A stretch of 64,000 nucleotides of DNA from NCBI GenBank assembly GCA_029706075.1, contig JAINUG010000178.1:716429-780428 (forward strand), given 5' to 3'. Both the position numbers and the translations under genes were made by a program. The notes beneath the pieces are model-generated. The model had not been told where the DNA came from. It did not search any database and worked only from the letters and a program-made list of their open reading frames with translations. This stretch comes from Aldrovandia affinis. Taxonomy: Eukaryota; Chordata; Actinopteri; Notacanthiformes; Halosauridae. This document shows, one piece after another, positions 34,880 through 43,545 of this stretch. The number at the start of each line of letters is the position of its first letter. The first letter of the stretch is position 1.

Positions 34880-34897
34880 ATGAGTTCATCTGAAGAG
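34880..34897 (+). CDS. prdm9: prdm9 coding exon 1 (MSSSEE)
   Basis: Only six codons, followed by a consensus donor GTAAGC. The exon itself starts at 34853 after acceptor CCGACAG. The acidic N-terminus resembles the short first coding exon of mammalian PRDM9. Confidence 0.75.
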
Positions 34898-42322: not shown

Positions 42323-43545
42323 ATAATTCTCTCTTTCCTCCACCAGGGGGCGAGAGGGTATCATCTGAGTTCTCCTGTACTCAATGTCCGCTTTCCTACA
42401 CAGCAGAGGTTTACCTGCAGAAGCACATCAAGAGATCTCACCCTGACGAATATGTGAGACTGCTCAGAGCTGGATCAGTCACTCCACAGACACTCCAGCC
42501 TTCCAGCAGCTCCCCTCATATTCTCCCCAATACAGTGCAGCTCCCCCAGTGTGGGAAGAGTTTCAGTACAGATGGAACTCTTAAACAGCACCAGCGGACT
42601 CACACAGGGGAGAGGCCGTACCACTGTGCACAGTGTGGGAAGAGTTTCAGTACAGATGGAACTCTTAAACAGCACCAGCGGACTCACACAGGGGAGAGGC
42701 TGTACCACTGTGCACAGTGTGGGAAGAGTTTCAGTAGAGATGCACATCTTAAACAACACCAGCGGACTCACACAGGGGAGAGGCCGTACCACTGTGCACA
42801 GTGTGGGAAGAGTTTCAGTCGAGATCAACAACTTAAACTACACCAGCGGACTCACACAGGGGAGAGGCCGTACCACTGTGCACAGTGTGGGAAGAGTTTC
42901 ATTCAACATCAACAACTTAAACGACACCAGCAAACTCACACAGGGGAGAGGCCGTACCACTGTGCACAGTGTGGGAAGAGTTTCACTAGAGATGCACATC
43001 TTAAACAACACCAGCGGACTCACACAGGGGAGAGGCCGTACCACTGTGCACAGTGTGGGAAGAGTTTCAGTAACTCAGGTCACCTAAAGATACACCAGCG
43101 GACTCACACAGGGGAGAGGCCGTACCACTGTGCACAGTGTGGGAAGAGTTTCAGTGACTCAGGTAACCTAAAGATACACCAGCGGACTCATACAGGGGAG
43201 AGGCCGTACCACTGTGCACAGTGTGGGAAGAGTTTCAGTAGAGATGGAACTCTTAAACTACACCAGCGAACTCACACAGGGGAGAGGCCGTACCACTGTG
43301 CACAGTGTGGGAAGAGTTTCAGTCAGTCAGGTGAACTAAAGGCACACCAGCGAACTCACACAGGGGAGAGGCCGTACCACTGTGCACAGTGTGGGAAGAG
43401 TTTCAGTGGCTCAGGTAACCTAAAGATACACCAGCGATCTCACACAGGGGAGAGGCCGTACCACTGTCCACAGTGTGGGAAGAGTTTCAGTCAGTCATGT
43501 AACTTAAAGGCACACCAGCGGACTCACACAGGGGAGAGGCCGTAA
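34880..43545 (+). CDS. prdm9: PRDM9, full-length meiotic histone H3 methyltransferase (10 coding exons, 781 aa)
   Basis: PRDM9 binds DNA through a zinc-finger array and trimethylates H3K4/K36 to mark meiotic break sites. Exons 34880-34897, 36315-36432, 37008-37139, 37693-37853, 38671-38767, 39244-39351, 39640-39911, 41143-41210, 41731-41903 and 42347-43545 have GT/AG borders and total 2,346 nt (782 codons with stop). Domains: KRAB-like ~7-46 ([10 protein letters not shown]), acidic [15 protein letters not shown] ~177-211, PR/SET ~240-370, zinc knuckle ~385-408, C2H2 array ~447-781. The key tyrosines are kept: Tyr284 (FGPYEG), Tyr349 (ILYR), Tyr365 (VWYGEE). These align with human Tyr276, 341 and 357 at a constant offset of eight. 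The start ATG at 34880 is the first in the exon and matches the short N-terminus. All parts of the full-length form are present. Confidence 0.95.
35595..35602. promoter_or_regulatory. Full CRE palindrome in prdm9 intron
   Basis: TGACGTCA lies 0.7 kb after the first coding exon, in a CpG-containing stretch (CCACGCGCATGGCGTGATG). It could bind CREB/CREM factors, but a chance match is possible. Confidence 0.25.
36315..36432 (+). CDS. prdm9: prdm9 KRAB-like exon
   Basis: Acceptor CTGTTCCAG. It encodes [15 protein letters not shown] and [17 protein letters not shown], aligning with human DISIYFTKEEW and YRNVKRNYNALITIG. In PRDM9 this domain recruits partners such as EWSR1 and CXXC1. Confidence 0.93.
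37008..37139 (+). CDS. prdm9: prdm9 exon (PAFM, acidic DSDEEW block)
   Basis: Acceptor GTTGTCTCAG, donor GTACAC. It encodes [17 protein letters not shown] and [13 protein letters not shown]. This aligns with human GLRATRPAFM and TEDSDEEWTP. Confidence 0.93.
37440..37562 (+). repeat. SINE family B fragment
   Basis: Plus-strand 3' portion with GTGTAATTGGCTACTAAATT then GGGAGAAAATCAG and an A-rich end. It lies in a prdm9 intron. Confidence 0.65.
37693..37853 (+). CDS. prdm9: prdm9 linker exon
   Basis: Acceptor TTCTTCAG, donor GTGAAG. Encodes a low-complexity Ser/Pro/Ala-rich linker ([18 protein letters not shown]). Phases fit both neighbours. Confidence 0.85.
38671..38767 (+). CDS. prdm9: prdm9 linker exon 2
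   Basis: Acceptor CTTTCCCAG, donor GTACAG. It encodes [20 protein letters not shown] and a Lys/Arg-rich end. Similarity to other PRDM9 proteins is weak; it is called from splice sites, phase and position. Confidence 0.75.
39244..39351 (+). CDS. prdm9: prdm9 SSXRD exon
   Basis: Acceptor TTGTTTCAG, donor GTGAGT. It encodes [35 protein letters not shown], aligning with the SSXRD region ending SEPQDDDYL in human PRDM9. Confidence 0.92.
39430..39638. repeat. CT-rich polypyrimidine tract
   Basis: About 210 bp of CTCTCC/CCCTCC repeat leads directly into the acceptor of the SET exon. The apparent open frames are composition artefacts. Confidence 0.9.
39640..39911 (+). CDS. prdm9: prdm9 pre-SET and PR/SET exon
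   Basis: Encodes the zinc-binding [20 protein letters not shown] pre-SET motif, then [33 protein letters not shown] (first key Tyr) and GSGYSWM. Donor GTGAGA. Confidence 0.97.
39937..40010. repeat. (GT)n microsatellite
   Basis: About 37 uninterrupted GT units begin 26 bp after the SET-exon donor. Confidence 0.97.
40230..40621. mobile_element. hAT-type MITE with perfect 8-bp target duplication
   Basis: The left end CAGTGGTCCCTAACTTTGGT and right end CGAGGTTAAGAGCCACTG are inverted repeats that continue into GGTCCTGGGGACCCAC / GTGGGTCCCCAGGACC. TTGTACAG occurs directly on both sides (40222-40229 and 40622-40629). No coding capacity. It sits in a prdm9 intron. Confidence 0.92.
41143..41210 (+). 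CDS. prdm9: prdm9 SET exon, middle
   Basis: Acceptor TGTTATTAG, donor GTTAGT. It encodes [22 protein letters not shown]. It aligns with human [20 protein letters not shown]. Confidence 0.95.
41340..41545 (-). repeat. tRNA-like SINE (family C)
   Basis: On the minus strand CTTTAGCTCAGGGGGCTAAA followed by GGTTTGAAAC resembles tRNA A and B boxes. An ATT repeat lies near 41,375. The same family occurs at 22,435. Confidence 0.55.
41731..41903 (+). CDS. prdm9: prdm9 SET exon, C-terminal
   Basis: Acceptor CTCTCTCAG, donor GTGCCT. It encodes [27 protein letters not shown] and [13 protein letters not shown]. It carries the second and third key tyrosines. Confidence 0.97.
42279..42320. repeat. (CT)n microsatellite
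   Basis: About 20 CT units shortly before the acceptor of the zinc-finger exon. Confidence 0.95.
42347..43545 (+). CDS. prdm9: prdm9 zinc-finger exon
   Basis: Acceptor CCTCCACCAG. It first encodes a single C2H2 zinc knuckle ([19 protein letters not shown]) and a short linker (~40 residues). Then come twelve 84-bp units of the form [12 protein letters not shown]7[10 protein letters not shown]. Contact residues (-1,2,3,6) by unit: TGTQ, TGTQ, RAHQ, RQQL, QQQR, RAHQ, NGHI, DGNI, RGTL, QGEA, GGNI, QCNA. The first unit lacks its first zinc Cys (LPQC). The last is followed by TAA. Confidence 0.97.

Follow-up and report, generated by a model that had tools for sequence, protein, structure and literature searches.

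PRDM9 chooses the sites of recombination in many vertebrates and uses up its own binding sites.

Among fishes, full-length or fast-evolving PRDM9 genes are described in Salmoniformes, Esociformes and Elopomorpha (Baker et al., 2017, PMC5519329) and complete orthologs in cod and herring (Cavassim et al., 2022, PMC8892340), and the partial paralog PRDM9-β is given for all but one of 176 teleosts (Zinner and Jakt). The initial annotation of the locus studied here mentioned repeated PRDM9 losses in fishes and a partial paralog without KRAB, SSXRD or the key tyrosines, in agreement with published accounts. Extra PRDM9 copies are expected to give only a transient benefit (PMC11703093). For Aldrovandia affinis (Notacanthiformes), a number of KRAB+SET proteins, mostly truncated, are mentioned in PMC11600626.

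We analyzed a PRDM9 gene of this species within a stretch of 64,000 nucleotides, hereafter the window (C868:716429-780428 of the 1.22-Gb assembly). A full-length fish PRDM9, the subject of the annotation, is already in print; the window gene is an added case of a known kind, and the plain claim confirms published knowledge. The point that goes beyond print is that the gene is one member, and not the best preserved, of a large PRDM9-α family. Among the titles and abstract openings listed in searches of an open-licence library, none reports a large KRAB-bearing PRDM9 family with several intact members.

Gene structure and domains of the window copy

The exons of the gene, the fingers of its last exon and the remains that follow the stop are as follows.

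34880-34897, + strand: exon 1, the ATG and first six codons, with the same sequence in the C2055 copy
36315-36432, + strand: exon 2, first part of the KRAB-like domain, one of at least 25 open copies in the genome
37008-37139, + strand: exon 3, end of the KRAB region and the DSDSDEEW acidic block
37693-37853, + strand: exon 4, linker
38671-38767, + strand: exon 5, linker
39244-39351, + strand: exon 6, SSXRD-like by exon place and residue resemblance, with no Pfam match
39640-39911, + strand: exon 7, pre-SET and start of PR/SET; carries the Tyr that corresponds to human Y276
41143-41210, + strand: exon 8, PR/SET
41731-41903, + strand: exon 9, PR/SET, carrying the Tyr residues that correspond to Y341 and Y357; 18 nt absent at 41864/41865
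42347-43545, + strand: exon 10, lone finger, linker, terminal C2H2 array and stop
42370-42441, + strand: lone C2H2 finger between SET and array
42535-43542, + strand: C2H2 array, one finger without its first Cys followed by 11 canonical 84-nt fingers
43546-43686, + strand: two relict fingers past the stop, the first of which contains a further in-frame stop

Joined, the exons make 2346 nt, or 781 amino acids and a stop; all nine introns are GT-AG, and an in-frame stop lies 57 nt 5′ of the ATG. The annotated model of ten spliced exons and 781 unbroken codons at 34880-43545 stands, with no internal stop, and the acidic block claimed for it is present in exon 3. Against the open copies on contigs C2055 and C2098 (described below), length differences in exons 2-9 are all multiples of three.

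The PR/SET domain is recognized by Pfam (PRDM2_PR, E=1e-44; SET, E=1.3e-7). The best solved-structure match of the SET region is human PRDM9 (4ijd, E=3.3e-71, 243.8 bits), with which it shares 95 of 168 residues; its match to PRDM11 reaches E=1.2e-42 (149.8 bits). For human numbering we take chain A of 4ijd to begin at residue 195, and the three positions then land on Tyr. In the window protein Tyr occupies the places of Y276, Y341 and Y357, as in the annotated pre-SET and PR/SET assignment. Six residues (18 nt) just past the last catalytic Tyr are missing in the window copy; each of the 11 others that align over exon 9 has them.

Of the claimed KRAB and SSXRD domains, the KRAB scores just under the Pfam gathering score and the SSXRD has no Pfam match. 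For the KRAB, the Pfam model, used here where the published criterion in PMC11600626 is a PRDM9-specific aKRAB model, gives 18.5 bits (E=0.0016) against a gathering score of 20.4 bits, and the only PDB match of the KRAB exons is ZNF93 (E=0.19). No SSXRD match at E<=10 was listed by Pfam for the window protein (few matches above about 0.1 pass the HMMER filters), the SSXRD-like exon had no PDB match at E<=10, and a genome-wide Pfam search found none, the controls also being without any match. Because the Pfam searches gave no match, the SSXRD assignment depends on where the exon lies and on the likeness of its residues; the 35 compared residues of exon 6 are all the same in four other copies (L034, L036, L039 and L050). 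SSXRD is weakly predicted in three species of Anguilla and two of Salmo in Baker et al. (2017, PMC5519329), and Cavassim et al. (2022, PMC8892340) omit it as a PRDM9 criterion.

With a single terminal array, its tyrosines kept and a possible KRAB, the window gene has the features by which α genes are recognized, and we consider it likely to be a complete teleost PRDM9-α with KRAB-like and SSXRD-like regions, PR/SET and C2H2 array. That it is instead a PRDM9-β or PRDM11 misjoined to unrelated KRAB exons would find some footing in the relatives of both kinds that exist in the genome. Contig C1924 holds a PRDM9-like SET with Y276 and Y341 kept and a Val at Y357, with no KRAB match on that contig, and is probably a PRDM9-β gene; the SETs on C2145 and C779, judged by eye against the alignment, look like PRDM11. 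The reading is nevertheless exceedingly improbable. KRAB-like exons and unsubstituted tyrosines rule out a β identity, and the β-like gene stands apart on C1924; the SET region is far nearer PRDM9 than PRDM11 by the scores above, which rules out the latter; and several other loci repeat this order of KRAB and SET exons, which rules out a chimera.

The gene is flanked by bcl9 and a connexin-40 gene.

13443-15644, + strand: neighboring bcl9 exon (BCL9 domain)
56512-57699, - strand: neighboring connexin 40 (gja5-like), a long ORF with Connexin and Connexin40_C domains

A bcl9 match and a connexin-40-like match lie close together again on C1035, which we read as the second copy of this region from the teleost genome duplication; looked at as a possible site of PRDM9-β, C1035 has no SET match among the 150 scored of 285 candidates. 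Around 51300-51500 (+ strand), the window also carries HLHIHVLGG, a HIT motif, in a stretch resembling a HINT-type exon.

Mobile elements and repeats are scattered through the window. A hAT-like element lies at 44296-45460, with matching ends, CAGGGG..GGCAACC at 44296 and GGTTGCCG at 45447, and is overlapped by an ORF (44179-44604) whose Spin-doc-type zinc finger scores 27.1 against a Pfam cut-off of 27.3 bits. Three UnaL2-type LINE 3′ ends occur at 6207-6259, 28444-28496 and 33144-33197, a type in keeping with an eel-like fish though not decisive for one. Remains of a Tc1-type transposase (DDE_3 and HTH_Tnp_Tc3_2) lie at 49355-50104, with others seen by eye at 30280-31288 and 16330-17283; among the 82 scanned window ORFs, DDE_3 matches four and HTH_Tnp_Tc3_2 five. 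An inverted repeat spans 59821-60900, with 177-nt arms that are 99% complementary and 726 nt between them.

The PRDM9-α family

Genome searches with the SET region and with the KRAB exons found many copies. In the SET-region search, in which 150 of 285 candidates were scored, at least 17 matches, counting the window, span nearly all of exon 7 at no less than 78% identity; one contains an internal stop. The KRAB-exon search returned 64 rows; reading of these rows gives at least 25 loci with a nearly whole open exon 2, window included, at 72-93% identity, and three further loci that each hold exon 2 in two frameshifted pieces. Twenty genomic stretches, representing 18 copies, were analyzed for exons. 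Copies on C413, C680, C144, C2016, C2296, C2472, C2478, C1136, C2151, C2124 and others are known from search rows at most, and more intact copies are possible.

The C2055 copy (L036 with L052) has ten exons without interruption, 733 codons in all, and finishes in QRSHTK and a stop. In the C2098 copy (L034), exons 2-10 are open and their introns GT-AG; a search of the expected place gave no exon 1. On C1874 (L035), exons 3-9 are open, the array is frameshifted and an open exon 2 lies upstream. Lesions are present in L039, L040, L047 and L050, and the other 11 of the 18 copies have part of the exons only within the analyzed stretch; some copies run off the contig or the stretch, so that an exon absent there need not have been lost.

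Across alignable sequence, exons and introns together, the identity of the window copy to the others is 83.9-93.1% and is highest with C2055. The two closest pairs overall (97%) each consist of neighbors on one contig. We considered whether the other copies could be haplotigs; the copies of the window, C2055 and C2098 are improbable haplotigs, since their aligned parts (7.0-8.4 kb with introns) are about 7% different. We take the family members to be paralogs rather than alleles. Alignable sequence between copies, compared for matches within 33-46 kb of the window, begins at about 33.5-34.5 kb and ends at about 44.3 kb.

Search rows also point to local clusters. PRDM9-α SET exon 7 fragments recur about every 1.8 kb over C1891:1705-12712, in what looks like a one-exon tandem array, and KRAB and SET exon copies are clustered over about 1.1 Mb on C1136 and 0.24 Mb on C1992. 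No relatives were confirmed in viral and genome contig collections.

Several α copies acting together, with several PRDM9 specificities in one genome, is a tentative reading that we regard as possible while leaning against it. It is favored by the ten uninterrupted exons of the window and C2055 genes and the open exons 2-10 of C2098, and by their arrays: among the fingers compared (12 from the window, one relict included, eight from C2055 and six from C2098), the scanned fingers of the three copies differ, and only one helix is common to the window and C2055 (TDGTLKQ) and one to the window and C2098 (RDGTLKL). Most of the 18 analyzed copies, however, are incomplete or broken, C2098 lacks a recognized exon 1, and a single full-length α1 is given for 11 of 12 salmonid genomes (PMC11703093). 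A large KRAB-bearing α family, with at least two uninterrupted ten-exon genes and different arrays, would make it possible to examine directly whether one meiosis uses several PRDM9 specificities, and whether spare PRDM9-α copies are a store of new fingers.

Zinc-finger array, selection and predicted role

The annotation described a long C2H2 array. Its 11 canonical fingers bear this out, but the array does not simply finish at 43545: because relict fingers and a second in-frame stop lie 3′ of the stop at 43543-43545, it has been shortened by nonsense changes. The arrays of C2055 and C2098 finish in QRSHTK and a stop, an end that is absent from the window copy. According to Raynaud et al. (2025, PMC11703093), array-shortening stops need not impair PRDM9.

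We computed P, the share of array amino-acid diversity at DNA-contact positions, a statistic of Baker et al. (PMC5519329), taking the contact positions as -1, 2, 3 and 6; the set used in PMC5519329 may differ. P is 0.654 for the 11 canonical fingers, 0.587 when the degenerate finger is added, 0.621 when a relict finger is added and 0.515 for positions -1, 3 and 6 alone. Table 1 of PMC5519329 gives 0.455 for the full-length gene of pike and 0.538 and 0.500 for those of salmon, and 0.158-0.331 for partial fish genes; two control zinc-finger genes of the same genome score 0.36 and 0.29, a small control of six fingers each. Between fingers, non-synonymous differences average 0.81 at the four contact positions versus 0.07 elsewhere, and synonymous differences about 0.08 versus 0.07; the contact positions rank first among all 20475 possible four-position sets. 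Diversity concentrated at contact positions is a published mark of a recombination-directing PRDM9. In sibling copies P ranges from 0.39 to 1.0 over 3 to 10 fingers, and because broken siblings also score high, a high P alone is no mark of an active copy.

Across species, whether ZCWPW1 and ZCWPW2 are present goes with whether PRDM9 is, canids and platypus being among the exceptions (Cavassim et al., PMC8892340). A genome search for zf-CW gave 11 rows, two of which lead to candidates for these genes, known here from exons rather than as assembled whole genes: the exon on C1602 best matches ZCWPW2 (4o62, E=6.8e-15; next MORC3, 1.1e-10) and, by eye, runs into a PWWP-like start, and that on C1236 best matches ZCWPW1 (2e61, E=3e-10) with a PWWP-like start, also by eye, in a nearby frame. 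A ZCWPW2 argues against membership of the clades in which that gene was lost. The suggestion that this species uses PRDM9-directed hotspots is made more likely by array P and by ZCWPW1 and ZCWPW2, and we think that its recombination is probably PRDM9-directed. What does not carry over is the step to the individual gene: because it is not single, with at least 25 loci holding an open KRAB exon, its presence alone is no proof that the window copy sets hotspots.

The window copy is an outlier in its family. Counting codon changes private to one copy (living copies only, at least three other copies per codon, the frame-broken L040 and L050 excluded), we found 14 non-synonymous and 3 synonymous changes in the window copy, against 2:5 in C2055, 3:3 in C2098, 6:6 in L039, 5:6 in L035 and 16:9 in the broken L047. 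Pooled, L034, L035, L036 and L039 have 16 non-synonymous and 20 synonymous changes (Fisher p=0.016 versus 14:3 for the window). Pairwise dN/dS is 0.51 between the window copy and C2055 and 0.21 between C2055 and C2098. In a tree of 12 within-genome copies the window branch (0.029) is the third longest after those of L051 and L047, which are incomplete or broken, and exceeds those of L034, L035, L036 and L039; it ranks first among the five complete or near-complete copies (these four and the window) both in branch length and in private amino-acid changes. This excess may reflect either relaxed constraint or a new role, and the gene may still be coding, with selection on it altered, or may have entered early decay.

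These figures bear directly on the reading that the window copy is a PRDM7-like duplicate under relaxed constraint that no longer directs breaks, with another α copy, most likely C2055, doing so. We regard this as a serious possibility that falls somewhat short of even. The private changes and dN/dS argue for it, as do the six residues lost past the SET tyrosines, an array cut by stops with its usual end missing, and the visible breakage of several siblings. Against it, exons 1-10 carry no stop or frameshift before the array stop and change length by multiples of three; 11 canonical fingers are kept with their diversity at contact sites; and 31 of the 49 differences from C2055 are non-synonymous, below an assumed neutral share of 0.775 that is our own estimate (p=0.025).

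Under our preferred reading of the window gene as a complete PRDM9-α, we infer its transcription, binding, catalysis and any hotspot role from sequence. Its array would bind a sequence motif, as in mammalian and salmonid PRDM9, the SET domain would methylate H3K4 and H3K36 nearby, and ZCWPW1, probably with ZCWPW2, would read these marks, which would help to bring or repair double-strand breaks. Weighing against this reading are the KRAB score under the cut-off, the undetected SSXRD, the six missing residues, the private codon changes and the stop that cuts the array. The window copy would be a fast-changing member, and a better conserved copy such as C2055 may hold the main role, alone or alongside it. 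A bolder version, which we think unlikely, would have several full-length α proteins with different arrays at work at once in one genome, supplied by a family of at least 25 KRAB-bearing loci that exchange and renew fingers, the window copy being active with altered methyltransferase behavior and not dying.

Comparison with known PRDM9 genes

The salmonid PRDM9-α genes of Oncorhynchus mykiss and Salmo salar, as described in PMC11703093, likewise have ten exons; KRAB occupies two of them, SSXRD one, SET three and the array one, in the places of the KRAB-like, SSXRD-like, SET and array exons here. They likewise keep the three tyrosines and have many partial paralogs beside few full-length genes. 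The same source gives salmonids 6-14 PRDM9 copies including β, mostly with one full-length, whereas here at least 25 loci have an open KRAB exon and at least two are ten-exon genes; it also reports PRDM9-set break hotspots mapped in trout, whereas function here is predicted from the DNA. Elopomorph PRDM9-α, likened here by its published description (PMC5519329), resembles the window gene in its fast-evolving array and in the weak prediction of SSXRD given for three Anguilla species. Teleost PRDM9-β likewise combines PR/SET with zinc fingers, but is described as without KRAB and SSXRD and with its tyrosines substituted. Mammalian PRDM9 (4ijd, 4c1q) has the same SET architecture, catalytic tyrosines and finger right after SET, with 95 of 168 SET-region residues the same, and differs in having the residues after the last tyrosine that the window copy is without.
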